A stretch of DNA of 64,000 nucleotides from Dietzia psychralcaliphila (GTDB lineage: Bacteria > Actinomycetota > Actinomycetes > Mycobacteriales > Mycobacteriaceae). Every line of letters begins with the position of its first letter. Position 1 is the first letter of the stretch. This document shows, one piece after another, positions 1,000-14,299 of the stretch. The stretch is from contig NZ_CP015453.1 of assembly GCF_003096095.1 (NCBI RefSeq), forward strand, positions 3,224,001 through 3,288,000, in the 5' to 3' direction. The notes beneath the pieces are model-generated. The model saw nothing but the letters and a program-made list of their open reading frames with translations. It was not told where the DNA came from and did no database searches. Position numbers and translations under genes: made by a program.

Positions 1000-2280
1000 T
1001 CAGACATCGGAGAGCCTGTCGACTCCGGGTGGCAACCATGTACAGCGACCCGGCGAGTCCGGATTCGCGACGGTCTTCCACGCCGACGGCCCGTCGCCGA
1101 CGAAGGCGTGGTGCACGGGACACCCCAACGCGCCGTTTCCGACTGTCGTGGGTCCGCCTCGGGACCATTCCTCAACGTGGTGGAACTGGCTCCTCCTGGC
1201 CGGTGCGGTGCATCCCGGGAAGGTGCACCCGCCGTGCGCGGCGTAGAGGACCAGGCGCTGGATGGCGGAGGCCAGGCGCCGCTCGGGGTGGGCGTCGACG
1301 TCTATCCGGTGCAGTTCTTCGCGGCCGCCGCGCAGCATCGAGACGAACCACGGCATCGACCCGGCCATCGAGACGGCCTGGCGGACGCTGAGCTGCGTGC
1401 CTGAGTCGGTCTCCACGAGAGCGTCGGGCTCCTCGAGTTGCTCCGGCGTCACGCGCACCACGATGGAGGCGATTCCCTTGGGCCGGGCGGGGTCGACGGT
1501 CGAACCGAGGGCCCATTGGTGCACGAGCGCGTCGTGCGCCCGCTGCTCCGGGGCGCGCTCGTCCGACCCGGGTTCACACGGCACGGCACCGCCGGGTCCG
1601 CCGAAGTCGCACAGCGCGCGCTCGACCAGCGCCCGGGCGCGTGGCGTCAGCGTCATGGTCAGGGTGCTCGTGCCGTCGGGCCGAACCGCGCCGAGTCGGG
1701 CCGAACGCTGCCGCTCCTGGTGCTCCTCACGGCCCTGCCCACGGTCGGGACACAGTGCGGCCACCCGACGGGCGGCTTCCGCCCGCAACTCCGCCGGGGC
1801 GACCGCGCGCGCGAACTCCGTGAGCGCCTCTGCGAATCGGGCCTTGGCCGTCCCGCCTATCGTCCCGGGCAGCCCGGAGACCGCCTTGGCGATGATCCGC
1901 TCGTGCTCGGCGGTGATCTCCCCGACCGCCGCCGCCCGCCCGGCAGGGGTGGCCCGCCTTCCGCCCGCCTCGATCCGCCCGTGCACCACGCCTCTGGCCA
2001 GGCCCAACTTCTCCGCCAGCATCGTGGCGACTCCCCCGGCGGAACGACCCTTCTGCCGGTGCAAGCCAGCCAGTTCGGCCGTGGCGCGCGATCCGGCGGC
2101 CTCCAGCCGGCGGGCCACGATCTCGGCACGCCCCACGGCGTCGACCAGCTCGTCCGCGTCATGGTCCGACCAGTCGACCTCGCACAGTGTCTCCACGGAG
2201 GCCTCGAGAAACGCGAGAACGTCAGCCAGTGGGGCCGTCTCCGACCCCTGCTCCGACGCGTCCCACACTCCCTGTTCCAT
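1000..2280 (-). CDS. DUF222 / HNH endonuclease domain protein (13E12 repeat family)
   Basis: A 426-residue protein of the mycobacterial 13E12 repeat family, with an N-terminal helical DUF222 domain and a C-terminal HNH nuclease fold. The HNH part shows CTFPGCTAPARRSQFHHV, a zinc-ligand cysteine pair followed by the HH motif, then GNGALGCPVHHAFV. The upstream frame is open to 2436, but the ATG at 2280 starts the recognisable domain (MEQGVWDASEQ) and earlier residues look non-coding. These proteins are abundant in Mycobacteriales genomes; their substrate is unknown, and mobile-element or DNA-repair roles are only suggestions. A second copy lies at 39369-40979. It sits alone between pta and egtD. 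Confidence 0.88.
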   Translation of the reverse strand: MEQGVWDASEQGSETAPLADVLAFLEASVETLCEVDWSDHDADELVDAVGRAEIVARRLEAAGSRATAELAGLHRQKGRSAGGVATMLAEKLGLARGVVHGRIEAGGRRATPAGRAAAVGEITAEHERIIAKAVSGLPGTIGGTAKARFAEALTEFARAVAPAELRAEAARRVAALCPDRGQGREEHQERQRSARLGAVRPDGTSTLTMTLTPRARALVERALCDFGGPGGAVPCEPGSDERAPEQRAHDALVHQWALGSTVDPARPKGIASIVVRVTPEQLEEPDALVETDSGTQLSVRQAVSMAGSMPWFVSMLRGGREELHRIDVDAHPERRLASAIQRLVLYAAHGGCTFPGCTAPARRSQFHHVEEWSRGGPTTVGNGALGCPVHHAFVGDGPSAWKTVANPDSPGRCTWLPPGVDRLSDV

Positions 2281-2438: not shown

Positions 2439-3539
2439 CTAGTCGACGACGACGAGGGCCAGCCCGAAATCTCCGGCCGCATCGGTCCAGACCGCCTGTC
2501 CGCCGAAGCCGTGCCCCGCGAGCTCGTCGACGAGGGCGTGGGGCTCAAACTTCCGGGCGATCTCGGTACGGATCCCCTCACCTGCGGCAAGGGTCCGCAC
2601 GCGCCCCAGGGTCGGGAAGTCGATCCGCACGTCGCGCACCGCGCGCAACCACATCTCGACCCGGCTCTCCCCGGCGTTCCATACGGCCTCGTGCCGGAAG
2701 TCGCGGCGGTCGAGTCCCGCACACTCGACGGTCCGGGCGATCACGTCGAGCATGTTGAGGTCGAACTCGGTGGTCACGCCGGCGGCGTCGTCGTATGCGG
2801 CCACCAGCCGCTCAGGACTCTTGACCAGGTCGAATCCCAGCACCAGCCGGTCCCCCGGGTCCATGATTCCGCGCAGCATGGAGAAGAACCCGGCGCGCTG
2901 CGACTCGCTGAAATTGCCGACGGTGCCACCGAGGAACAGCACCAGCCGCCCGCCCGGCTCACCCGGTAGTGGACCGTCCAGAGCGGTGAGGTCGCCGATG
3001 ACCGGGTCGATCCGCACGCCCGGATACTCCTGAGCGAGCGCGCGGGCGGACTCGAAGAGCATCTCGGTACTGATGTCCACGGGCACGAACCGCGCCTCGC
3101 CCGGCCCCGCCTCACCCTGCCCCGTCTCGCCCGGCGCCTCCGCTCCCGGCGCCTCCGGCGTTCCCTGTGTCCCCGCCGCGCGCCCGGCCGCCAGCACGTC
3201 GAGCAGCACCCGCGTCTTCTCGCAGGTCCCCGCCCCGAGCTCGACCACCGTCGACGAGGCGCCCACGATGTCGACGGCGCGGGCCCGCAGGATCTCGGCC
3301 TCCGCCCGGGTCGGGTAGTACTCGGCCACCCTGGTGATCTGGTCGAAGAGCAGGCTGCCCTTCTCGTCGTAGAACCAGCGCGGCGGCACGGTCGGCGGGT
3401 CGGAGAAGAACCCCTCGCGCAGGTCCGACTCCAACGCGGCGGTGTCGGGGTCGGTGTCCGGCGGCGTTGTCGTCATCGTCGTTGTCGTGGTTGTGGTCGT
3501 CGTCGCTGCCGTCGTCGTCGGATTCTCGGAGCCGGTCAT
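2439..3539 (-). CDS. egtD: L-histidine N-alpha-methyltransferase (ergothioneine biosynthesis)
   Basis: EgtD methylates histidine three times with SAM to give hercynine, the first step of ergothioneine synthesis. The 366-residue frame contains RWFYDEKGSLLFDQIT near the N-terminus, the SAM-binding VVELGAGTCEKTRVLLDVL, and LFLGGTVGNF, all typical of the family. The ATG at 3539 overlaps the egtB stop as ATGA, so the two are translationally coupled in the order egtB then egtD. The first 30 or so residues contain a long threonine run encoded by ACN repeats (3466-3522) that is not part of the fold. A second low-complexity stretch rich in Gly, Glu and Ala follows the SAM motif (3115-3190). The separate start at 3569 was rejected because the coupled one is better. 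Confidence 0.93.
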   Translation of the reverse strand: MTGSENPTTTAATTTTTTTTTMTTTPPDTDPDTAALESDLREGFFSDPPTVPPRWFYDEKGSLLFDQITRVAEYYPTRAEAEILRARAVDIVGASSTVVELGAGTCEKTRVLLDVLAAGRAAGTQGTPEAPGAEAPGETGQGEAGPGEARFVPVDISTEMLFESARALAQEYPGVRIDPVIGDLTALDGPLPGEPGGRLVLFLGGTVGNFSESQRAGFFSMLRGIMDPGDRLVLGFDLVKSPERLVAAYDDAAGVTTEFDLNMLDVIARTVECAGLDRRDFRHEAVWNAGESRVEMWLRAVRDVRIDFPTLGRVRTLAAGEGIRTEIARKFEPHALVDELAGHGFGGQAVWTDAAGDFGLALVVVD

Positions 3540-4915
3540 CGGGCGAGCCTCACTCCCGTGGCCGCCCACCGCGACGAGGCGGGGAAGAAGTTGCGGTAGG
3601 TGGGCCGCGTGTGGCCCGCCGGTGTGAGGGCGCTGCCGCCGCGCAGGACGTGCTGGTCGGACATGAACTTGCCGTTGTACTCACCGGCGGCCCCCTCCTC
3701 GGTGACGAACCCGGGATACGGCAGGTAGGCGCTGGCGGTCCATTCCCAGACGCCGCCGATCGCCCTCTCGGCGGCAGCGCGCGGGTGGCAGCGGTCGGGG
3801 TCGAGTTCGTCGCGCGCCTCCCAACCGGTGGTGGCGACCTCCCACTCGAACTCCGTGGGCAGGCGCGCGCCGGCCCAGCGGGCGTAGGCGTCGGCCTCGT
3901 AGAAGGAGACGTGACAGACGGGTTCGGCGTCCACGACCGGCCGCCGGCCCGAGAGGGTGAAGGTGGTCCACTCGACGGCGGCGGCGGCGGACGCGCCGCC
4001 CGAGGCGCTACCGACGTCATGGCCCTCGCGCCGCCAGTACCCGGGCGCGTCCCAGCCCTCGGTCTGCACGGCGGCCCACCCGTCGGAGAGCCACAATTCT
4101 GGGCGGGTGTACCCGCCGTCGGCCATGAACTGCTTCCAGTCGGCCACCGTGACCTGGCGGGTGGCCACCTCACCGCCGGGGATCCACACGCGGTGACGCG
4201 GGCGTTCGTTGTCGTAAGAGAAGCCGTCGTAGGAGACGCCGTCGCGAGAGACTCCGTCGCGGGAGCCGCCGTCACGGGTGAACCCCGCACGGTGGGCGGG
4301 GTCCGCGGCGCCGACCTGCGCGACCCCCTCGACGACGACGATCCAGTCCGTCTCCCCCCGCACCGCGGCCACCGGGTCCGCGGGCCGGTCCACGTAGACC
4401 GGGTCTGTCGGATTGTGGGCGAACAGGTGCTTGGCGTCTATGAGCATCAGCTCCTGGTGCTGCTGTTCGTGGTGGCAGCCCAGCTCGAGCAGTTCCAGCC
4501 CACGCTCGTCGACCCGGCCCGCCTCGAGCGCGGCCACCACGGCCTCGTCCACCCGCGCCCGGAAGTCGCCTATCTCCGCCACCGACGGGCGGGTGATGAG
4601 CCCGCGCTGGGGCCGGGGCTGACGCGGGCCGACGGCCTCGTAGTAGGAGTTGAACAGGAACCGGAAGATCGGCTCGGGCGAGGAATAGCCGGGCAGCCCG
4701 CCCAACACGAACTCCTCGAAGAACCAGGTGGTGTGCGCGCGGTGCCAGGCCGCGGGACTGGCGGCGGTCATGGACTGCGGGATCTGGTCCTCGGGGCTGA
4801 GCCGGGAGGCCAAGAGGTCGGTGAGCTCGCGGACGCGCAGGAACTTCTCGATCGCACTCTGGGGGCGCGTGCGCGCGTCCGGGCCGGGCTCTGCGGTGAC
4901 GTCTCCGACTGTCAT
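3536..4915 (-). CDS. egtB: ergothioneine sulfoxide synthase
   Basis: EgtB is a non-haem iron enzyme that joins a thiol donor (gamma-glutamylcysteine or cysteine) to hercynine using oxygen. The 459-residue protein has an N-terminal DinB-like domain with the iron ligands (AAWHRAHTTWF, about residue 61, and HHEQQHQE at 148-155) and a C-terminal formylglycine-generating-enzyme-type fold (GGVWEWTAS, LRGGS). Length fits the family. The ATG at 4915 begins MTVGDV; the upstream open frame crosses a 35-bp tandem repeat and is not coding. A run of four 15-bp repeats (4211-4270) encodes an RDGVS-like pentapeptide in the loop before NERPRH. No egtC or egtA is adjacent, unlike the usual egtABCDE layout. 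Confidence 0.93.
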   Translation of the reverse strand: MTVGDVTAEPGPDARTRPQSAIEKFLRVRELTDLLASRLSPEDQIPQSMTAASPAAWHRAHTTWFFEEFVLGGLPGYSSPEPIFRFLFNSYYEAVGPRQPRPQRGLITRPSVAEIGDFRARVDEAVVAALEAGRVDERGLELLELGCHHEQQHQELMLIDAKHLFAHNPTDPVYVDRPADPVAAVRGETDWIVVVEGVAQVGAADPAHRAGFTRDGGSRDGVSRDGVSYDGFSYDNERPRHRVWIPGGEVATRQVTVADWKQFMADGGYTRPELWLSDGWAAVQTEGWDAPGYWRREGHDVGSASGGASAAAAVEWTTFTLSGRRPVVDAEPVCHVSFYEADAYARWAGARLPTEFEWEVATTGWEARDELDPDRCHPRAAAERAIGGVWEWTASAYLPYPGFVTEEGAAGEYNGKFMSDQHVLRGGSALTPAGHTRPTYRNFFPASSRWAATGVRLAR

Positions 4916-5010
4916 GGTTCCCCCGGGGTGTCGTGGTCGGCGGTCGGACTGCCGCCAGATTAACCACGGTGTAGTTCGGAGCCCACCGCTATTCGGATGC
5001 CACCGCCATT

Positions 5011-5085
5011 CAGGTGCCACAGGCCACCAGGTGCTGCAGCACTTTCGAGTGCCACGGGCCTTCAGGTGCTGCAGCTTCTCACGTG
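5011..5085. repeat. 35-bp tandem repeat between the alkyltransferase-like gene and egtB
   Basis: Two copies and the start of a third of a 35-bp unit begin at 5011, 5046 and 5081. Each begins with a TGCCA core, and the first two contain GGTGCTGCAGC. A half-period copy of the core lies at 4994. The array starts 11 bases after the stop of the upstream gene (minus strand) and lies in the roughly 180-base leader of egtB. The function is unknown; it could be replication slippage or a regulator array. Confidence 0.6.
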
Positions 5086-5095
5086 CCATAGCCGT

Positions 5096-5692
5096 CTAAC
5101 CACGGTTGCTGAACGGCACCGGCGCGGCGGCGGTGAGGTTGCGCCGCTCGTGCTCGAGGAGCCGGAGGCGGTACTCGGGACAGTTCCCCATCCCGCCGTC
5201 GGCGCGGATCACCCGGTGCACCGGGATGACGAACGGCACCGGCACCAGGGTGCACAACCGCCCCACCCGGCGGGCGTTGCGCGGCCTGCCGGCGTCCAGG
5301 CTGATCTGTCCGTAGGTCGAGGTCTCACCGTAGGGGATGCGCTGGATCTCGAGGTAGACCTCGCGCGAGAACTCGTCGTGGACGCCGGCGGCCGCCCAGT
5401 CCACGGGGACGTCGAACTCGCGCAGTCGGCCGGCGCAGTAGGCCTCGAGCTGATCCGCTACCCGGTCAAGGTGCTCAGCGGCCGCGCCGGGCTCGGAGTC
5501 GCCCACCTCGTCGTCGTCATCAAGGTGGGTCACGGTGAACCACGACGCGAGGTCCTCGTCCGCGACACCCTGGTCCGGACCCACCTGGTCCAGTCGTGCC
5601 AGGCCACGCGGGGTGGCCTCGGCGACCATCCGACCGGCGGCGGTGTCGAGCACCCGCACGGCCCTACCGTCGGTCCTGCGGGGCGACGCCAC
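5096..5692 (-). CDS. alkyltransferase-like protein (O6-alkylguanine-DNA alkyltransferase fold without catalytic Cys)
   Basis: The C-terminal half is clearly the MGMT/Ogt DNA-binding fold: PYGETSTYGQI (residues 120-130), the arginine-finger segment RNARRVG (138-144) and LLEHE near the end. The catalytic PCHRV motif reads PVHRV: residue 158 is Val (codon 5219-5221, GTG), and the Asn of the preceding NP element is also Val (150). The protein therefore should not accept alkyl groups and resembles alkyltransferase-like (ATL) proteins, which flag lesions for nucleotide excision repair. ATLs usually have Trp in that position and are shorter; this one keeps a full-length N-terminal region. The GTG start at 5692 lies 3 bases after the stop of the SUFU gene, so it belongs to that operon. 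Confidence 0.85.
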   Translation of the reverse strand: MASPRRTDGRAVRVLDTAAGRMVAEATPRGLARLDQVGPDQGVADEDLASWFTVTHLDDDDEVGDSEPGAAAEHLDRVADQLEAYCAGRLREFDVPVDWAAAGVHDEFSREVYLEIQRIPYGETSTYGQISLDAGRPRNARRVGRLCTLVPVPFVIPVHRVIRADGGMGNCPEYRLRLLEHERRNLTAAAPVPFSNRG

Positions 5693-5695
5693 GCC

Positions 5696-6334
5696 TCACA
5701 CCACGCTCGGCCGGTCCGGGTTGGTCACGTCGGCGTCGGCCGTGTCGAGAAGCTCGAACAGTGCGTCGGCGCCGTCGCGGGCCACCGAGGACATCTCGGC
5801 GGTGGTGATGGGCACGGCCTGGAGCCGCGTGAGCAGTGGTCCGGTGCCGTCCGGGCCGCCGGTCTCGTCGACGACCTGCAGGTCGGGCCACAGGAACGGC
5901 GGGGTCAGGACCAGGTGCTCGCAGCGCCGGCCGGAGTCGACGAGACCCACCGCGTTGGGTATCACCGCGCCCGGCGCCACGTGGATGGACCCGGTGGCCA
6001 CGGCCAGCGCGCACGCGTCCAGCACGTCGGCCATGGCGCGGTGCCCGGTGCGGCCGACGGTGACGAACTCACTGCGGATCTGCCGCCCGTCGGGCGTCGT
6101 GACGTTGGTGGGGAGCTCCCGGGCGCCGACGGTGGCGTAGGTGGTGAATCCGGGCGCGGGGACGTTGTCGACGACGACGATGTCGCAGTGCCACTCCGTG
6201 GTCTGACCCTCCTCGTCGGCTTCCGTCTCGTGCGGGTAGCGCAGGACACGAACCGACTCGGCCACGTCGAGAAGGCCTTCGAGGCCGGAGAGGTCAGCCT
6301 TGTCCGGGCCCGGGACGGTGCTACCGCCGCTCAC
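5696..6334 (-). CDS. suppressor of fused (SUFU) domain protein
   Basis: A 212-residue cytoplasmic protein matching the bacterial SUFU-domain family, known in some bacteria as immunity proteins for polymorphic toxins and otherwise of unknown role. Features seen are the N-terminal strand VRVLRYPHE, the central [23 protein letters not shown], and the family-typical [11 protein letters not shown] near residue 180. The GTG start overlaps the stop of fgd (GTGA at 6331-6334), so both are translated from one transcript. No toxin gene is next to it; the partners are fgd and the alkyltransferase-like gene, so an immunity role is not supported here. Confidence 0.8.
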
Positions 6335-7350
6335 GCCAGGTCACGCAACCGCGGCTCGAGGTCGGTCTTGAACAGGTCCAGGAACCGCTTCTGGTCGTGG
6401 CCCGGCGCGTGGAAGACCAGGTGGTTCAGGCCCGCGTCGACATACTGCTTGACCTGCGCCACCGCATCGTCCGGGTCGGAGGCGACGATCCACCGCTTGG
6501 CGACCTGCTCGATGGGCAGCTCGTCGGCCAGGCGCTCCATCTCCCGCGGCGAGTCCACAGAGTGCTTCTGCTCGGGGGTCAGCGACAGCGGCGCCCAGAA
6601 GCGGCAGTTCTCCAGCGCCGCGGCCGGGTCGGGGTCGTAGCTGATCTTGATCTCGATCATCCGGTCGATCTGGGAGGAGTCACGGTCGTTGATCCCCGCG
6701 CCCTCCTCCACGGCCGGCAGGAGCTTGTCGGTGTAGAGCTCCATGCCCTTGCCCGAGGTGCAGATGAAGCCGTCGCCCACGCGGCCGGCGTACTTGGCCA
6801 CCACGGGACCGCCGGCGGCGATGTAGACCGGCACCCCGTCGGAGGGCACGTCGTAGAGGAAGGCGTCCTTGGTGGTGTAGAAGTCGCCGTCGAAGTTGGT
6901 GGTCTCGCCGGTCCACAGCTCGCGCATGAGGCGGACCGACTCGCGCAGGCGGGCGAACCGCTCCTTGAACTCGGGCCACTGCCCCTGGTGGCCCGTCGCG
7001 ATCTCGTTGAGCGCCTCTCCGGTACCCACACCGAGGAAGATGCGACCCGGGTAGAGGCACGCCATGGTGGCGAAGGCCTGCGCCAGCACTGCCGGGTTGT
7101 AGCGGAACGTGGGCGTGAGCACGGAGGTGCCCAACTGCAGGCGCTCGGTGCGCTCCCCCACCGCCGTCATCCACGCCAGGGAGAACGGTGCGTGGCCGCC
7201 GTCGTGGCGCCAGGGCTGGAAGTGGTCTGACACCGTGGCCGAGTCCATGCCCGCCTGCTCCGCCAGGACCGCGTACTCGACCAGATCACGCGGGCCGAAC
7301 TGCTCGGCCGAGGCCTTGTAGCCGAGCTTCAGGGCGGAGGTGGGGGGCAT
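6331..7350 (-). CDS. fgd: F420-dependent glucose-6-phosphate dehydrogenase
   Basis: Fgd oxidises glucose 6-phosphate to 6-phosphogluconolactone while reducing cofactor F420, and is a hallmark of Mycobacteriales. The 339-residue frame has the luciferase-like fold and family stretches [12 protein letters not shown] (about residue 35), [31 protein letters not shown] and [19 protein letters not shown]. The ATG at 7350 ([12 protein letters not shown]) has GAGGAG eight bases upstream; the longer open frame to 7467 is discarded. It leads a three-gene run (fgd, SUFU, alkyltransferase-like) joined by overlap or 3-base gaps. The promoter must lie in the intergenic space shared with the divergent SipW locus. 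Confidence 0.93.
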
Positions 7351-7740
7351 CGACGACTCCTCATGGGTTGTGTGAGTGATTTCACCGACGCGGTGGTCGG
7401 GCACTACATCCGAGTATGCCAGTGCACCCCAGAGGTCCGTCCGGGCTGGACAACGGGACGTAAACAATCGCTGACCACCGGGGATGCGGAACTACACATA
7501 AGAAACTCTACATAACCCTCATGTTTCGAACCTGATCTTTCGACCAGCTAACGATCGACTTTTCGTTAACTTGAACTTACTTCTGCTGTTCAAGACGCTT
7601 TTCAATTGGAAAAGATTCTGTAACATTCGGTCGGGTCACAAACTGGGCCCGGTGTCGATCAGCGTCCAACTTCATGTGCGAGGCCGACACACCAAATACC
7701 TCTGGGCCCAATCGGCGGCCCCCATGGAAAGGCGCGACGC
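7351..7740. promoter_or_regulatory. AT-rich divergent intergenic region with two dyads, between fgd and the SipW locus
   Basis: This 390-base gap is distinctly AT-richer than its surroundings from about 7480 to 7660 and must hold the promoters for fgd (minus) and the SipW operon (plus). Two perfect inverted repeats stand out: a 7-bp arm pair CTTGAAC/GTTCAAG at 7570-7576 and 7588-7594, and a 6-bp pair CTTTTC/GAAAAG at 7598-7603 and 7609-7614. A GTAACA and a GTCACA lie 15 bases apart just downstream (about 7620-7640). No clear -35/-10 pair could be assigned. No gene was found here. Confidence 0.5.
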
Positions 7741-8448
7741 TTGAACGCCAACGACCCCATCACCCCAGACGCCCAGCAGAAGCAGGACCGGGCCCGCAAG
7801 CGCAAGGCCATCCTGGCCGGCGGCGTGGTCCTCGGCCTCGGCGCCGCGGTGACCCTGGCCGCGTGGTCGGACGATGTGTTTGCCGACGGCATCTTCAATA
7901 CCGGTTCGTTCGAACTCCAAGGCTCGCTCGATGGAACGACGTTCCTCGACTACGACGGGCCGGCGTACGACCCCACCGAATCGGCGTCTCTCGAGTTCCA
8001 GCTAGAGGCCGAGGAGATGGCTCCCAGCCAGACCGTATACGCGCCTTTCACCATTGGCACCGAGGAAGACACCTCCCTTGACGGCACGTTCACACTGCAG
8101 AGCGTCTCTTCAAGTGGCACCTACGCGGGCGTGCTCTCCTACCAGATCTTCGAGGTCAATTCACACTCCGAGAACTGCAATCCCGACGATGCTGAAAACC
8201 TCCCGACGGTCGCATGGGTTGGCGGGCCAACGGCGAAGGTCAACGAGACCACCGTCACCGGCCTCAATGACCCGCTGGAAGTCGTTGCCGACAACCAGGC
8301 CCCGTACCAACACCTTTGCATCGCCGTGACGTTGGGGAACGTGTCAGCCACGGCCACTGAGAACCAGGCTGCAGTACTCGCCGCAGGCGTTCCCGCCGCA
8401 GCAACTACCGTCTCGTGGGTCTTCAACGGCCAGTCCACCGACGCCTGA
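7741..8448 (+). CDS. SipW-dependent exported protein 1
   Basis: A 235-residue exported protein with the alternate signal peptide handled by SipW-type peptidases: basic RARKRK, a Gly/Ala-rich core, then TLAAWSDD followed by GIFNTGSFELQG (residues 19-60). This matches the actinobacterial alternate-signal exported family (RER_14450-like, as I recall it). The mature part has two cysteines, in ENCNPDD and HLCIAVTLG, at positions shared with the two next genes, so a disulfide is likely. It ends with a strand TTVSWVFNG. The TTG start at 7741 has GGAAAGG eight bases upstream. It is the first gene of the operon and is followed by a strong hairpin, so it may be the most expressed subunit. TasA/camelysin-like fibre formation is inference only. 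Confidence 0.85.
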   Translation: MNANDPITPDAQQKQDRARKRKAILAGGVVLGLGAAVTLAAWSDDVFADGIFNTGSFELQGSLDGTTFLDYDGPAYDPTESASLEFQLEAEEMAPSQTVYAPFTIGTEEDTSLDGTFTLQSVSSSGTYAGVLSYQIFEVNSHSENCNPDDAENLPTVAWVGGPTAKVNETTVTGLNDPLEVVADNQAPYQHLCIAVTLGNVSATATENQAAVLAAGVPAAATTVSWVFNGQSTDA

Positions 8449-8551
8449 TTCCTCGCGAAACCCGCGGCACAGTTCTGAATCAAAAAGGGAACGTCGAGCA
8501 GTCGCTAGCGCACTCCCGCTTCAGTCAAGAATCGACCAATTAACGCCGCCC

Positions 8552-8581
8552 TGAGCGGAGCGGCTGCTGCCGCTCCGCTCA
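8552..8581 (+). terminator. perfect 13-bp hairpin between SipW substrates 1 and 2
   Basis: Arms 8552-8564 and 8569-8581 are perfectly complementary around a TGCT tetraloop. There is no U-tract, as is common in actinobacteria. It sits 104 bases after the first substrate gene and 33 before the second, so it could be a partial terminator or RNA stabiliser that sets the ratio of the first product to the rest. Confidence 0.6.
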
Positions 8582-8614
8582 CCGCGTCCACCTCGAACTG
8601 TCAAAGGCACCTCA

Positions 8615-9298
8615 GTGACCGAATCCAACCTCAGTTCCACCGACCACCGTCGTCGCGTCCGCGCGCTTCTGGCTGGTGGTCTCGTGTGCGGAATCGGCGC
8701 CGCCATGACGCTCGCTGCATGGTCGGACGACATCTGGGTCAATGGTCAGTTCCGGGCAGGCCAGTTCAACGTCCAGGGAAGCCCGAGTACCACCTCCACT
8801 CACACGTGGGGCGAGTACTCGACGCAGGGGAATAGTGCGCCCCTCGCTTTCTCGTCAGTGGTACCCACGATTGTCTCGCCGGGGACCAGCTACTACGCAC
8901 CGTTCAGTCTGGCAATAGACTCGACCAAGGCCGACTTTAACGGAAGCGTCCGAATCACTGAGTACCTCGGGACGGGCGATCCAGCGCTTCGCTCCAAGCT
9001 CACGTGGAGCGCCGCCGTCGTCCCCGGTCCCAGCAACTGCACTGAGGCCGGGTACCTTGCCGGCACCACGCTCGTACCCAGTGCTCAGGGCCCGGCCACG
9101 GACATGCTTCAGCCGGTCTCCCCTGCTTCCGGCACGGTGACTCTGGACAAGACGCTGAACACCACGGCCACCACTCCCAAGACGGTGTGTTTCAAGGTCA
9201 CGGTGGCGCCCCAGGGCTCGGGCGTCGATCCGTCGACCAACCCGTATGGCACTGGGTCCGCTGGGCTCGTCTGGCACTTCACCGCGACTTCTGTGTAA
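8615..9298 (+). CDS. SipW-dependent exported protein 2
   Basis: A 227-residue paralogue of the preceding protein. The signal region reads RRRVRALLAGG, then IGAAMTLAAWSDD and GQFRAGQFNVQG (about residues 12-52), the same pattern of Thr-Leu-Ala-Ala-Trp-x-Asp and Gly-x-Phe. The mature domain has the two shared cysteines (SNCTEAG and TVCFKVTV) and ends in LVWHFTATSV, a terminal strand with Trp like its relatives. The GTG at 8615 is preceded by a weak AAAGGCA-type site. It probably shares the fold of TasA/camelysin-type proteins, in which the segment after the signal forms a beta-sandwich; that is inference. Its role as a structural subunit or a carrier is unknown. Confidence 0.83.
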   Translation: MTESNLSSTDHRRRVRALLAGGLVCGIGAAMTLAAWSDDIWVNGQFRAGQFNVQGSPSTTSTHTWGEYSTQGNSAPLAFSSVVPTIVSPGTSYYAPFSLAIDSTKADFNGSVRITEYLGTGDPALRSKLTWSAAVVPGPSNCTEAGYLAGTTLVPSAQGPATDMLQPVSPASGTVTLDKTLNTTATTPKTVCFKVTVAPQGSGVDPSTNPYGTGSAGLVWHFTATSV

Positions 9299-9337
9299 GT
9301 ACCTGTCGCCAATTCGCAGTTCGGAGGGAGGAGCGGG

Positions 9338-10003
9338 ATGAGCACACACTATCGTTGGTGGCGCCAGACCCGTGTCCTCGCCGCAGCGGGCCTCGTGCTG
9401 GGCTTGGGCTCGCTGGCTACCGTCGCAACCTTCCAGGACGGCACATGGGCGAACGGCCAGTTCGCCTCGATTCGCGGCGGGATCGAAGGATCGACGACCT
9501 CGACTAACGGGGCCAACGGGACATGGAGCAACCACTTCACCTCCGGCAGTGCCGCGGTGATGGAGGTGAACCCCTCCACAGGCCTGGTTCCCGGCGCGAC
9601 GGTGTATTCCAAGTTCGCCCTGCGGACAAGTTCTGGCGTGACGAATCCGGCCACGGTCACCATGGGGACCGGCGTTGTGGCCTTGAGCGGCAATTCGACC
9701 CAGACAATGGTCGACGCGGTTCGGTTCCGTGCGTACCTGTCGGGCAACCACACCTGCAACTCCACCACGGTGACCCAACCCGGGGGAGTCTCCTATCTGC
9801 GGGGCACCGCCACGACCTACACCACCGCAGGAGCGTCAATCACCGGGCCTACGATCACGCTCCCGAAAGGGACGGACACCACCGCCGGCCCGGGCCGCAC
9901 CGTCTGCTTTGAATTCAGCCTCGCCAACGACGCGACCGCCGACGCTGCGAACGGCGCCGACTTCTCGGTCACGTGGCCATTCACCACCTTCATCGGAACG
10001 TGA
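9338..10003 (+). CDS. SipW-dependent exported protein 3
   Basis: Third paralogue, 221 residues. The signal is more diverged: RQTRVLAAAGLVLGLGSLAT, then VATFQDGTWANGQF, where Phe-Gln-Asp replaces Trp-Ser-Asp. The mature part keeps the cysteine pair (HTCNSTT and TVCFEFSLAN) and the final strand FSVTWPFTTF. The body is rich in Thr, Ser, Gly and Asn, as expected for a surface protein. The ATG at 9338 has a strong GGAGGGAGG upstream, better than those of the two earlier paralogues. The TGA stop overlaps the GTG of the signal peptidase (GTGA at 10000-10003), which couples its translation to that enzyme. Confidence 0.83.
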   Translation: MSTHYRWWRQTRVLAAAGLVLGLGSLATVATFQDGTWANGQFASIRGGIEGSTTSTNGANGTWSNHFTSGSAAVMEVNPSTGLVPGATVYSKFALRTSSGVTNPATVTMGTGVVALSGNSTQTMVDAVRFRAYLSGNHTCNSTTVTQPGGVSYLRGTATTYTTAGASITGPTITLPKGTDTTAGPGRTVCFEFSLANDATADAANGADFSVTWPFTTFIGT

Positions 10004-10551
10004 CGACGTTGACCCACACCACACTCGGCCCTCGACACGCGGCTCCGACGACCCCACGCGGTACCCGCATCGGGAGGTGGATCGGCGAGCGAATTCTCGA
10101 CCTGCTCGCGCTCGGTGGAATCATCTGCATCATCGCTGTGGTCGCAGCGTTCGCGTTCAACATCTCGCTCATCATGTTCAAAACCGGCTCGATGAGCCCC
10201 ACCATCACGACGGGTTCCCTGGCAATCGTCCGCGAGATACAGGCCTCGGAAGCAGAGGTCGGGGACGTCCTCACCATCGACCGCCCCGGGCAGCTCCCCG
10301 TTACACACCGCGTCGTGTCGACTACCGAAGTTGGTGGCGGCAAATACTCCATCGAGATGAAGGGCGATGCCAATGACAACAAGGACCCCGCCCCTTATCA
10401 GGTGACTCAGGCACGAGTGGTGATCTTCTCGGTCCCCAAGCTTGGTTACTTCGTTTCCAGGGTTTCTAATCCCCGCGTCATGGCGGGCACGACCGTCGCC
10501 ATGACACTGCTCGTCACCTGGTCATTCTGGCCACGGAAGAGGAGGACCTGA
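10000..10551 (+). CDS. SipW-type signal peptidase I
   Basis: A 183-residue membrane serine protease of the SipW/archaeal-ER class of signal peptidase I. The transmembrane helix at about 37-57 is followed by KTGSMSP, with the nucleophile Ser64, and VTHRVV with His103 in place of the bacterial Lys. MKGDAN holds the conserved Asp123. A second hydrophobic helix near 155-175 ends in WPRKRRT, a positive cytoplasmic tail. The enzyme is expected to cleave the alternate signal peptides encoded on both sides of it. The GTG at 10000 overlaps the upstream stop, and the stop shares one base with the next ATG (TGATG). The open frame extends back to 9973, but the coupled start is preferred. Confidence 0.93.
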   Translation: MTTLTHTTLGPRHAAPTTPRGTRIGRWIGERILDLLALGGIICIIAVVAAFAFNISLIMFKTGSMSPTITTGSLAIVREIQASEAEVGDVLTIDRPGQLPVTHRVVSTTEVGGGKYSIEMKGDANDNKDPAPYQVTQARVVIFSVPKLGYFVSRVSNPRVMAGTTVAMTLLVTWSFWPRKRRT

Positions 10552-12248
10552 TGTCCGTCCACACCCGATTCCGCTCCCTTGGCCTCGCCACCCTGGCCGC
10601 CGCCACCGCACTGTCAGTGGTCTCCGCGAGCACCGGTGATGGCCTCATCGCACAGACCGAAGCCGCCTACACGGACAGCGAATTCGCCAGGGCGGACGTT
10701 GCCGCACAGTGGCCGCTTGCTTTCGCCTCCGTCGTCGCAGGGTCGGCGAAGTCTTCCAGTGAGACGGTCACTGGGGGTTTTGGCAATATGACCTACGAGG
10801 CCAGCTCCCAGTGGACGCAAGAGTTGACTGGAAGCGCAAACACAACAGACACCACCACGGCGTGGCCTTCGTACTCCCGGAAGCTCAATCAGCGCACTCG
10901 CGGACCGCAGTTAATCTCAGATGCTACCGCGAACTTTCTTCCCAAGGATTCCACTTCGCTCGCACTCTTTAATGCCTCAGCTGTCCGGGCTTTCACCAAT
11001 CCGGGTACACAATCTGACCCGCAAAACTTCCGCTGCATTGTAATCAACGAGAGCTACGGGCCGGCCAGCAATGATTCACGGTGCTCACTCGGAAACAACT
11101 TCGTCGCAGCAACGAACAACACGGCGGCTTATGGATTCTCCGCCGACATAACTGATACCTACCATGGTTTTCTAAACTCGGCGGACATAAGGACGGCGGT
11201 CCGTTGCGGATTGAATTCGGCGGACGCAGACCCTCCGACAGGTCGAGTTGACCTTGGCCGAGAAATCACGGTATTTGGCAATACCTACCTTCGCTATAAC
11301 AACACCGACTCACTGCGAACAATCTGGGCCAACGGGATCGATCGAAATCCAGAAGGGTTTTCAGCTGCTGAGCTAGTTAGTGGGCAGATATCTCCGATGT
11401 ACAGAATCGGGGTCTTGAGTACCGAGATGCATGCCAGAGTCATGCCGGTGATCACACGCACATCGCAGACCTCTCCCCCTTATGCAATATCGGAGGTCGC
11501 CGTGTATGTCGAGTACTACGACAACAGCAATAGCAACTCGCTTCGACTAAAAATGTACTTCGTCCTATCCCGCTCGGAATGCGGCGTGAAGCGCACGACC
11601 GATGCCACTCTTCCGTCCAAACGTCCGGTGTTCCCGGCGACGTTGCCCGGTGGCAACGGCCTGACCCCGTACTCGGGTACGGGCTTCACCGTGGCCTCCG
11701 CGCCTGCGCCCGTGAAGCGCATGGCACTCCAGGACAATCCCGAGACCACCGCCACTACCTCGCTCCCTCCGACCATCACTCTGACCTCTCCGCTTGAGTC
11801 CGCCACCGCTGCGGTCACCACGACCTCTGCACCTCCGGACCCGTCGGCATCCGACCCCACCGAGTCCTCCGGAACCATCACCGCGACGTCCACCAATCGC
11901 GAGTCCACCGCAACAACGAACGACACCACCACCGTGCTGACCGCCTCCACGACGTCCGCACCGCCAACGATCGTCATCCCCACCGACCCCGGCACACTGT
12001 CACCGACCGCGCAGACCGAGAAGGTCGGAACCGTCGAGGTGGACGGCACCGCGACCGACGTCGTCGTCAAGGGCAGCGCCGCCCCCGCCGACTCCCGCAC
12101 CTCCGAGCAGGCACTGGACACCTGGATCAACGAGGGCACCCGCCTGGCCGGCGACTGGAAGACCTTCACGTCGACCGACCCGGACTCGGACGGTTGGCGC
12201 TGGGCCGCCATCAACCAGGAGACCGGCACGGTGGTGTACGTCCGCTGA
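10551..12248 (+). CDS. large exported Ser/Thr-rich surface protein of the SipW locus
   Basis: A 565-residue exported protein. The N-terminus has a hydrophobic segment (about 10-28), then QTEAAYTDSEFARADV, which resembles the region after the core of SipW-type signals, so SipW processing is likely. Residues 50-370 form an Asn- and Ser-rich globular part with four cysteines (FRCIVI, SRCSLG, VRCGLN, SECGVK). Residues 390-490 are a Thr/Ser/Pro linker suited to glycosylation or wall spanning. The last 80 residues form a small conserved-looking domain ending GWRWAAINQETGTVVYVR. The DNA for residues 80-345 is noticeably less GC-rich than its surroundings. No LPXTG motif was seen. It may be an anchoring or tip component; the function is not known. 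Confidence 0.8.
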   Translation: MSVHTRFRSLGLATLAAATALSVVSASTGDGLIAQTEAAYTDSEFARADVAAQWPLAFASVVAGSAKSSSETVTGGFGNMTYEASSQWTQELTGSANTTDTTTAWPSYSRKLNQRTRGPQLISDATANFLPKDSTSLALFNASAVRAFTNPGTQSDPQNFRCIVINESYGPASNDSRCSLGNNFVAATNNTAAYGFSADITDTYHGFLNSADIRTAVRCGLNSADADPPTGRVDLGREITVFGNTYLRYNNTDSLRTIWANGIDRNPEGFSAAELVSGQISPMYRIGVLSTEMHARVMPVITRTSQTSPPYAISEVAVYVEYYDNSNSNSLRLKMYFVLSRSECGVKRTTDATLPSKRPVFPATLPGGNGLTPYSGTGFTVASAPAPVKRMALQDNPETTATTSLPPTITLTSPLESATAAVTTTSAPPDPSASDPTESSGTITATSTNRESTATTNDTTTVLTASTTSAPPTIVIPTDPGTLSPTAQTEKVGTVEVDGTATDVVVKGSAAPADSRTSEQALDTWINEGTRLAGDWKTFTSTDPDSDGWRWAAINQETGTVVYVR

Positions 12249-12414
12249 CACAGAGGTCGGCCGGGTCGCGCCCCTGCCGGCTGGCGCGCGTCGACACACC
12301 GCCACAGCACGCGGGATCGAGTGAGATTCGCCACTCGCCGAAGCCAAATGTAACGATTCGGCCACTGGCGGCCATACCCTGAATGAACCGGCGATCATCG
12401 CGGGCCAGCCCGCG

Positions 12415-12464
12415 CCGGAGTCCCCTCCTCCGGACCGATCGCCGTGTGACGGCTTTCGGAGGAG
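12415..12464 (+). promoter_or_regulatory. leader with mutually exclusive hairpins over the ribosome binding site of the next gene
   Basis: The bases CTCCTCCG at 12425-12432 are exactly complementary to the Shine-Dalgarno segment CGGAGGAG at 12457-12464. They can instead be captured by CCGGAG at 12415-12420 pairing with CTCCGG at 12428-12433. The two pairings exclude each other, as in anti-SD/anti-anti-SD leaders. Seen by eye only; no folding energy was computed. Confidence 0.4.
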
Positions 12465-12466
12465 CT

Positions 12467-13096
12467 ATGCGGATACGACACGCGGCCACCGCGCTGGTCG
12501 CCCTCGGTTCCACCTCCGTCTGCGCGCTGGGCGCCACCCTGGTCCTGCAGGACCGCGAGGACGACGCCCGGGAGTCGGAGCTGCGCAGCTCCTCCTGGTC
12601 AGTGCAGGCCTCCACCGACTTCGGCACCACCTGGACCGCGCCCATCTCCACCTACGGCGGACACTTCCCCGTCCGGGTGGACACGGCCGGTCTCCGTAAC
12701 CGCTCCGCCTACCAGCCGCTGACCCTCCGGACGAGCGTCGACTCCCGCTCGGAGGCCCACGTGATGATCGGCGAGGGCATGCTGGTGGACGGCGACCCCA
12801 CGACGGCCGCCGACGTTCGGATCCGGGCCGTCACCACCAGCGGAGGCGCGTGCGCCGCGCCCACGTTCACCAGTGGCACCCCCAGCATCCTGGCCGGCGA
12901 CGGCATCCGTCCCGAACCCGTGGACGCCGCCACCGCCGACGAGCCCCTGGTCCTTCCCGCCGCCACCCGCACCACCCCGGGAGCACCCGTCACCGTGTGT
13001 CTGGAGTTGAGCATGGACTCGGCGTCCCCGGCCCCCGACTCGGTGCTGATGCTCGCCTGGCCCATCGAGATCACCCGCGCGGACGCCGGAACCTGA
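12467..13096 (+). CDS. exported protein related to the SipW substrates
   Basis: A 209-residue protein starting MRIRHAATALVALG at a good GGAGGAGC site; the earlier ATG at 12383 lacks one. The N-terminal hydrophobic segment (about 5-28) is followed by QDREDDARESELRSSSW rather than the AWSDD pattern, so it is a diverged alternate signal or an anchor. The mature domain resembles the three SipW substrates: a first cysteine in GGACAAPT, a second in TVCLELSMD, and a closing strand with Trp (LAWPIEIT). It lies 218 bases after the large surface protein on the same strand and probably belongs to the locus, with separate translational control suggested by the leader. Confidence 0.72.
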   Translation: MRIRHAATALVALGSTSVCALGATLVLQDREDDARESELRSSSWSVQASTDFGTTWTAPISTYGGHFPVRVDTAGLRNRSAYQPLTLRTSVDSRSEAHVMIGEGMLVDGDPTTAADVRIRAVTTSGGACAAPTFTSGTPSILAGDGIRPEPVDAATADEPLVLPAATRTTPGAPVTVCLELSMDSASPAPDSVLMLAWPIEITRADAGT

Positions 13097-13159: not shown

Positions 13160-14299
13160 TCACGCGCCGTTCCGGCTCGCCTTCCTCGTGCGGGCGGCCA
13201 TCCGGTACACCTGCTCGTGGGCGGCCATGATCTTCGTCGGATCCGCGCCCTCGACGCGTGGCGGCGCCGACCGGGGTTCGTCGATCGCGGTGCGCACCGC
13301 CCAGGTCAAGGTGCCGGGGTCCCGGGGGTCGTACACCTCGCCGGAATGCTCGTCCGGATCACAGCGATCGAACCACTGCTCGCGCAGGAAGCCCACGGCC
13401 GGGAGCACCGGCGTCACCCCCAGATCCCGGCACAGCTCCAGCCAGGTGGAATGGGTGGCGAACCGATACGGCAACACGCACACGTCCAGGGCGGCGAACT
13501 CGGCGAGCACAGGCCCCAGGTCCCGGGCCTCGTAGCGGATCAACCGCACCGATTCCCATCCGCCCTCCGCCGCGAGCTCGGCGACCAGGTGGTGCCCGCC
13601 GCTCTCGCGGTCCTCACCGCACGCGTCCCGCCACGCCTGCGCCTCCACGACGATCCGCAGGTGCGCGCCCCGCCGACCGGTCGCCACGGGTGCCAGCAGG
13701 TCGAGGAGTTCGGGCCCCTCGATGTTCTCGCCCATGCGTTCCAACAGGACGCCCACGATGGTGTCCCCGTCGCCCCTGAGGTGCTTGGAGGCGCGGACGG
13801 CAGAGGAGATCTCCGCCTCGTCGAGCAATCGCGGATGCGGCACCACCATCGACTCCACACCCCACCGGACCCACAGTTCCCGCGCCGCGACCTCGGTGAG
13901 CGTGAGCACCTGTGACGCAGCCCCGACAAGCGTGCCGGTGTTACCCCGGTGCGGCTGCGAGTCCTCATGCGAGGGGTAGACGATGTCGTGCACGGTCAGC
14001 ACCATCGGGACCCCGGCGCGGGACAGGTGCTCGGTCACGTCCCGGGCACTCTCCGGATCCAGGTAGTCGTAGCCGAAGTGCACGTGGGCCACGTCCACGT
14101 GCTCCAGGTCGCGGTCGAGGATCGGGGCGGGGCCCTTCACGTAGGTACCCGGGTGGGATTCCCCGTTGACCACGCCCGGCCGCACCGGGACCAGCTCCAC
14201 GTGGCCCGACCACGCCAGTCCCGTGATCCGGCGGACAGCCGGATGGGCCGCGGGTAGCACCGCCACCCGGGTCCGGGACGCGCCCACATGTGACCGCAT
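13160..14299 (-). CDS. glycosyltransferase-like protein (GT4/GT-B type)
   Basis: A 379-residue cytoplasmic protein with a GT-B glycosyltransferase look: N-terminal strands (RVAVLPAAHP), VDVAHVHFGYDY near residue 70, and PMVLTVHDIVYPSH, typical of family GT4 acceptor-side domains. The C-terminal half has LDVCVLPYRFATHSTWLELCRDLGVTPVLPAVG, the usual position of the donor-binding Glu region, here with TWLELC. The acceptor and sugar cannot be told. It lies 6 bases upstream of metZ's 3' end on the same strand, its ATG at 14299 following an AT-rich CATAAAACTTAG stretch on the plus strand. It lies tail-to-tail with the SipW locus and could decorate its Ser/Thr-rich product; that is speculation. Confidence 0.7.
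   Translation of the reverse strand: MRSHVGASRTRVAVLPAAHPAVRRITGLAWSGHVELVPVRPGVVNGESHPGTYVKGPAPILDRDLEHVDVAHVHFGYDYLDPESARDVTEHLSRAGVPMVLTVHDIVYPSHEDSQPHRGNTGTLVGAASQVLTLTEVAARELWVRWGVESMVVPHPRLLDEAEISSAVRASKHLRGDGDTIVGVLLERMGENIEGPELLDLLAPVATGRRGAHLRIVVEAQAWRDACGEDRESGGHHLVAELAAEGGWESVRLIRYEARDLGPVLAEFAALDVCVLPYRFATHSTWLELCRDLGVTPVLPAVGFLREQWFDRCDPDEHSGEVYDPRDPGTLTWAVRTAIDEPRSAPPRVEGADPTKIMAAHEQVYRMAARTRKASRNGA

Follow-up and report, generated by a model that had tools for sequence, protein, structure and literature searches.

Whether a group of small exported proteins encoded beside a SipW-type signal peptidase in Dietzia could form a surface fiber, and which of the neighboring genes would belong to it, is the question raised by this locus. 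Fibers of the TasA type have been described in archaea and in the biofilms of Bacillus. The locus lies in a 64-kb window, the whole stretch of DNA that was analyzed, at 3.224-3.288 Mb of a 3.9-Mb Dietzia genome; its nearest named relatives at the operon are D. cercidiphylli and Dietzia sp. SLG310A2-38A2. The six open reading frames described by an earlier sequence-only reading are all present and all on the + strand: P1 (7741-8448, 235 aa), P2 (8615-9298, 227 aa) and P3 (9338-10003, 221 aa), the SipW/archaeal-type signal peptidase SPW (10000-10551), the Ser/Thr-rich BIG (10551-12248, 565 aa), predicted to be a SipW-type secreted protein, and P6 (12467-13096, 209 aa). The overlaps claimed for them were found around SPW, with GTGA joining P3 to SPW and TGATG joining SPW to BIG, but not at either end, where P1 lies 166 bp from P2 and P6 lies 218 bp from BIG. 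P1 is thus not tightly overlapped with the other genes, and the gap that separates it from P2 holds a strong hairpin. The start of P1 is a TTG codon at a position supported by GTG or ATG starts in its orthologues, and the start of P6, formerly placed at 12383, was corrected to 12467, the orthologues opening with MRIRHA. A promoter scan gave no signal above chance.

The operon is flanked on the left by a core gene for an F420-dependent glucose-6-phosphate dehydrogenase (6331-7350, - strand; TIGR03554, 669 bits), and to the right of P6 by a conserved protein without family match (13160-14299, - strand), which adjoins P6 in most Dietzia. Most module genes have a GC content of 61-66% and the surrounding core genes 69-73%. 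We rejected the idea that the module derives from a phage or prophage, on the grounds of no PHROGs match, core chromosomal flanks and no tRNA. Elsewhere in the window a DUF222/HNH protein, of a common repeated gene family of actinobacteria, is encoded at 1000-2280 (- strand), and genes judged by eye to be ergothioneine synthesis-like (EgtD and EgtB types) and of the O6-methylguanine methyltransferase type occupy 2439-5659 (- strand).

With respect to export, SPW passed the TIGR02228 model with 63 bits (cut-off 51.85), and its Ser/His dyad, with the Ser codon at 10189-10191 (GSMSPT) and the His codon at 10306-10308 (THRV), was invariant in 16 relatives. Its score to the Bacillus SipW equivalog NF046067 was 52.5 bits, under the 190-bit threshold; judged by these scores, SPW is related to Bacillus SipW and is not the same equivalog. 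The NCBIfam SipW-signal model TIGR04088, which describes a 34-residue signal and has a cut-off of 19 bits, was passed by both P1 (27.5 bits) and P2 (28.4 bits), while P3 at 15.7 bits fell slightly under it and BIG and P6 gave no match. The scores to TIGR02228 and TIGR04088 and the invariant dyad support the earlier claim of a SipW-type peptidase and SipW-type processing, but the alternate signal said to be shared by the three small proteins is recognized in P1 and P2 and narrowly missed in P3, which has a diverged signal (ATFQD) and has kept the arm spacing and the Cys pair. In a number of Micrococcales and Micromonospora loci (L165, L177, L196 and others, at ~6001-7245) SPW reads in frame into an extension of ~230-260 residues that has no Pfam match, and the third protein, which follows the extended SPW, is short; SPW of Dietzia and Rhodococcus is itself short.

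Paralogy of P1, P2 and P3 and their single Cys pair, both proposed earlier, were borne out by alignment of 33 relatives, P6 orthologues included (alignment A1), in which two Cys and one C-terminal Trp were invariant; in P1 the cysteines are Cys146 (8176-8178) and Cys193 (8317-8319). When used as a query, P6 recovered P3 unaided (E 3e-6). Matches to the small-protein family profile were observed in 108 of the 251 genomes of the taxonomic family, representing 18 of 31 genera, and at a strict limit in only 6 of 296 genomes spread over the phylum. Searches of the mature domains against Pfam, PHROGs and PDB sequences gave no useful match. The sequence-only reading had proposed a search of these domains against TasA and camelysin profiles; no such model of Pfam or NCBIfam was matched by P1-P3 or P6, and PDB sequences likewise gave no match.

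The same genome carries two more SipW loci, one at 3.07 Mb, so that the description of the locus as self-contained holds only roughly. The other of these (G000:C1:758000-761200; L038:6228-9201) is of a second kind, with genes for a TIGR04089 protein, for two signal peptidases of the archaeal type and for additional proteins that carry a SipW signal; it scored 142 bits to TIGR04089, and an ORF of 601 aa followed by one of 1419 aa lies next to it. None of P1-P3 or P6 matched TIGR04089 (RER_14450), a full-length model with a cut-off of 60 bits. Since the small-protein profile A2 also matches proteins of this TIGR04089 locus, the TIGR04089 family looks like a sister branch. Among other loci, L154 (G126) has a small SipW-signal gene in two apparently identical copies (3097-3651 and 6323-6877) together with three SPW-type peptidase matches, and in two others (L149:5519-6232 and L150:7918-8610) a clear lipobox (VASC, VAAC) is encoded by the small gene that follows BIG, which suggests a lipid-anchored family member.

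The fold of the small proteins was approached by AlphaFold2 modeling of P2 with 77 input sequences from the window and related loci. The resulting model had a mean pLDDT of 80, with 106 residues at or above 90 and residues 26-45 unplaced. Foldseek ranked the TasA fiber 8AUR first (E 1.4e-5, probability 1.00) and the archaeal bundling pili of Pyrobaculum (AbpA, 7UEG) second (E 1.4e-3), followed by a FimG complex and then the Sulfolobus thread filament 7PNB, in fourth place; these three runners-up are all donor-strand systems. By VIA the model matched 8AUR with Z 8.5 (3.7 A over 142 residues) and 7UEG with Z 7.9, only the 8AUR match exceeding the level common by chance; many FimG, FimH and Csu subunits were found in further rows. 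P2 is thus predicted with confidence to have the TasA jelly-roll fold, in a beta-sandwich at residues 49-227, although TasA structures were probably in the AlphaFold training set. A structure prediction unrelated to TasA or any beta-sandwich had been named as grounds for giving up the fiber idea, and the prediction obtained is not of that kind.

The unplaced part of the P2 model takes in an N-terminal arm. In P2 the predicted mature start is Ala35 (codon 8717-8719) and the arm spans residues 35-45; the 11 residues from the predicted cut site to an F-x-x-G motif equal the A28-F39 spacing of TasA, and the spacing to the Phe is kept in P1 and P3 according to the alignment of relatives. The donor strand of TasA consists of mature N-terminal residues 28-38, and the archaeal bundling pili and the Sulfolobus thread are likewise assembled by donor strands (PMC9674648). 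With hhalign the arm stretch was aligned gap-free to TasA at low probability, in an alignment that covers signal and arm only and uses a single TasA sequence. Against reading the arm as a donor strand, it lies in the SipW recognition region, and its conservation may have another cause.

We also weighed the possibility that each of these proteins is exported by SipW to act on its own account, at the surface or as a secreted protein (beta-sandwiches of a coat, camelysin-like or glycan-binding kind), and that they work as monomers or as a layer and form no fiber. Non-polymerizing proteins with the same fold are, in our ranking, the strongest rival to a fiber, for the fold alone is no proof of polymerization, glycosidase beta-sandwich domains are also matched to P2 by VIA (Z 6.4-7.5), and P6 stands alone without SipW. 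However, the TasA fiber and the archaeal bundling pili occupy the top Foldseek ranks for P2, the length of the arm and its unplaced state fit donor-strand exchange, and a polymer with specialized subunits would account for tandem paralogues beside a large partner of a different type. On this balance the non-fiber reading appears unlikely, and we regard it as probable that the operon P1-P2-P3-SPW-BIG makes a TasA-like donor-strand surface fiber whose core is conserved and whose exposed parts can be exchanged. As to the fiber or coat first suggested from the sequence, SipW-type processing, the TasA-fiber fold of a small protein (from the P2 model) and the conserved module order agree with it, but the membership of P6 is not supported, and BIG does not look like an ordinary anchor outside the pathway.

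Of the 23 Dietzia genomes 19 carry P6, and apart from a single exception its identity in the other genomes is 58-92%. The dehydrogenase gene adjoins P6 with no module between them in five genomes (G002, G004, G006, G009 and G010), and three (G006, G007 and G022) keep P6 without any SipW, the weak match there fitting an ordinary signal peptidase. Because P6 persists both in genomes with the empty slot and in genomes lacking SipW, it is placed outside the operon as an independent core TasA-like paralogue. The module thus occupies a slot of variable content that is bounded by two core genes, the dehydrogenase gene and P6. P6 is the resident, and the fiber module is a cassette gained and lost next to it. 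P6 is a doubtful candidate for a lipoprotein: in a lipobox check, the signal Cys was present in every orthologue listed, but the -1 residue was Val in the window and in G013. A further genome, G020 (L091:11786-12406), has a C-terminal piece of BIG adjoining P6 and no SPW or small genes; this piece is probably the remnant of a lost module. In G019 (L056) the same slot holds a two-peptidase TIGR04089-type module. That module was seen to end in the same BIG C-terminal domain, as though whole module types are exchanged at one site.

Conservation of the module was followed through other actinobacteria with the SPW alignment as query. The module begins with one to five small genes, continues with SPW and BIG and in some cases ends with a further small gene, an order that was observed in Dietzia, Rhodococcus, Hoyosella, Williamsia, Lolliginicoccus and other genera. 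Among 80 loci of named genomes found with the SPW profile, a set which includes Arthrobacter, Leucobacter, Plantibacter and Micromonospora, at least one small gene lies directly upstream of SPW in 79 and exactly two small genes in 64. The full set, with three small genes ahead of SPW as in the window, is shared by both of the closest species, G015 and G016. Within Dietzia, BIG precedes SPW in G001, and G012 has no small genes at the slot. Recurrence in many genera argues that the pattern is not due to chance, and the gene order, which had been put forward as a check on the fiber idea, proved to be conserved in related genomes. No TasA relatives were found on plasmids for profile comparison. 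One module, on a contig of Kitasatospora arboriphila NRRL B-24581 (L227), is nearly that of Williamsia muralis, and the assembly is possibly mislabeled or contaminated.

No family match was found for BIG. Its signal ends in TEAAYTDSEF, a SipW-type motif (TEA / AYTDSEF) that the earlier reading had not mentioned, and SipW-type signal ends were also seen in BIG proteins extracted from ~30 loci (TEAAWTDS, TDAAFNDD, LAAWGDKVWG). From the predicted mature start at ~10665 the protein is divided into a predicted all-beta outer domain (~10719-11588) that has four conserved cysteines (Cys162, 178, 219 and 344; alignment A3), a Ser/Thr/Pro linker (~11628-11990) and a C-terminal domain (~12003-12245). 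Over its first 16 mature residues BIG can be aligned with the small-protein arms in register. BIG arms fit the small-protein arms of their own locus best (observed 33.8, permuted 28.1, sd 1.5, 0 of 2000 permutations as high), in a test that does not remove shared ancestry and to which the relatedness of the loci contributes. BIG is therefore not viewed as an ordinary anchor outside the pathway, since its alternate signal and its arm are those of the subunits. The AlphaFold2 model of BIG was too weak (pLDDT 56) to type the outer domain and showed no similarity to TasA or TapA. Its weak top matches were mostly porins, and a mycomembrane beta-barrel was considered and rejected on account of this low pLDDT, Z values of at most 3.6 and predicted strands without a consistent alternating hydrophobic pattern.

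In Bacillus, TapA has its N terminus in common with the TasA donor strand, donates it to TasA and starts the fiber (PMC9674648, PMC10151520); it combines a disulfide-bearing domain with a long disordered region (PMC10151520). BIG could accordingly act at the fiber base, and not exposed at the tip, as a chaperone and wall anchor of the TapA type, its linker and C-terminal domain holding the fiber in the envelope, an arrangement that is compatible with a fiber and that we consider possible but somewhat doubtful. It would account for the arm that BIG has in common with the small-protein subunits, for its TapA-like union of a disulfide-bearing domain and a long disordered region, and for the last 90 residues, which at this slot stay conserved throughout Dietzia, also in cases where the remainder of BIG or the whole module type is different. 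The outer domain is, however, the most polymorphic part, in Dietzia and in pairs of close relatives from Rhodococcus, Rhodococcoides and Williamsia, which is unexpected for a buried base, and the BIG model, though weak, gave no TapA match. Because of its arm, its large polymorphic outer domain and its flexible linker, we prefer to see BIG as a protein that probably caps or starts the fiber.

Comparison of the DNA with that of D. cercidiphylli and Dietzia sp. SLG310A2-38A2 gave a measure of this polymorphism. Identity to both close relatives is ~90-98% in the dehydrogenase gene, P2, P3 and SPW, whereas it falls to 45-77% in a first tract running from P1 after the signal to the P1-P2 gap (7831-8560, + strand; 47-77% for P1 after the signal), and to 34-60% in a second tract formed by the BIG outer domain (10690-11720, + strand), the core of which (10791-11580) has a GC content of 53.5%. 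Both tracts have sharp borders immediately after the signal sequences, and the variable reading frames are intact. The mature P1 of D. cercidiphylli is 62% identical to P1 of G015 and 39% to that of the window, while its neighbors all side with the window (90% and above), which argues that P1 alleles move independently. Switching of BIG alleles was also seen in Rhodococcus and its relatives. Every pairing of four genomes from the Rhodococcus group gave 90-96% identity for the small genes and SPW, but BIG occurs in these genomes as two alleles, 94-95% identical within and 56-59% between; in an R. corynebacterioides pair BIG is 66% identical and the remainder 94-97%, and a Williamsia pair shows the same dip in BIG identity. 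At the second Dietzia locus no clear dip was seen between the window genome and G018 (BIG 83%, small gene 87%). Relaxed constraint or rapid drift, and not allele exchange under selection, could also lower identity in P1 and BIG; an identity of 34-60% precludes a selection test, and a search of the genome revealed no donor locus. This explanation is nevertheless quite improbable given the sharp borders directly after the signal sequences, the intact reading frames, the two discrete BIG alleles among four Rhodococcus genomes whose other genes are 90-96% identical, and the P1 of D. cercidiphylli, which is nearer to that of a more distant species than to its neighbors.

The gap between P1 and P2 contains a perfect 13-bp stem-loop without a T-run (8552-8581, + strand). 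At this place six of the seven Dietzia loci show a stem of 12-17 bp without interruption (G-T pairs allowed), with differing sequences, and the hairpins were matched by only 0-2 of 400 dinucleotide shuffles. Hairpins between a first gene and later ones often increase the proportion of what the first gene yields. Because P1 is the first gene and is set apart by such a hairpin, it is probably the most abundant subunit.

From the gene content and order, the signals, the protease active site, the predicted fold, the module conservation and the polymorphism that were observed, we infer cleavage, polymerization and subunit roles as follows. P1-P3 and BIG would be exported by the Sec pathway, and SPW would cut them at ...LA/TEA | A(W/F/Y)xD, freeing an N-terminal arm of ~11 residues. 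The arm would complete the beta-sandwich of the next subunit by donor-strand exchange, as in TasA fibers, with P1 as the major subunit and P2 and P3 as adaptor or minor subunits. BIG would be located at one end of the fiber, capping or starting it, and would show its variable surface outward.

Comparison with known systems shows both likeness and difference. Like the tapA-sipW-tasA operon of B. subtilis (8AUR), the Dietzia operon places a SipW-type protease beside its substrates, has small subunits predicted to be beta-sandwiches of the TasA-fiber fold with an N-terminal arm equal in length to that of TasA, and includes one more partner, which is larger and has disulfides and a tail that is disordered. 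Unlike B. subtilis, modules of the Dietzia type have three to four paralogues that diverge from one another and all keep a conserved Cys pair, and no TapA orthologue, BIG being larger and having a conserved C-terminal domain; the Dietzia operon also has polymorphic exposed parts and no sequence membership in TasA models. The sipW-tasA-bc_1280-calY locus of B. cereus (camelysins) resembles it in having TasA paralogues with one SipW and no TapA, but differs in gene order, phylum, the presence of BIG and the Cys pair. In B. cereus, where two TasA paralogues accompany one SipW, fibers were demonstrated by EM (PMC4292775). TIGR04088 and TIGR04089 proteins have the same type of signal as the Dietzia operon, the TIGR04089 locus with two signal peptidases, and AbpA and the Sulfolobus thread, which are structural matches of P2, are archaeal and have no detectable sequence match. 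A search of open-access papers found no actinobacterial TasA-like fiber. Already known are the NCBIfam models for the signal, the peptidase and the sister family, and TasA fibers in Bacillus.

It is quite possible, and we put it forward tentatively, that actinobacteria carry a widespread donor-strand fiber system in which a conserved export and assembly core is joined to interchangeable exposed parts, with alleles of the BIG outer domain and, in Dietzia, of P1 swapped between close species. If the fiber reading is true, it would explain a set of database entries named only 'SipW-dependent-type signal peptide-containing protein'. Allele swapping, if true, would point to selection by phages, predators or hosts; the polymorphic regions of BIG and P1 predict which part meets the outside, and they provide natural allele pairs for testing. 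Should this principle of assembly work in actinobacteria, including the mycomembrane-bearing Dietzia and Rhodococcus, these organisms would have a defined protein scaffold for adhesion and biofilm.
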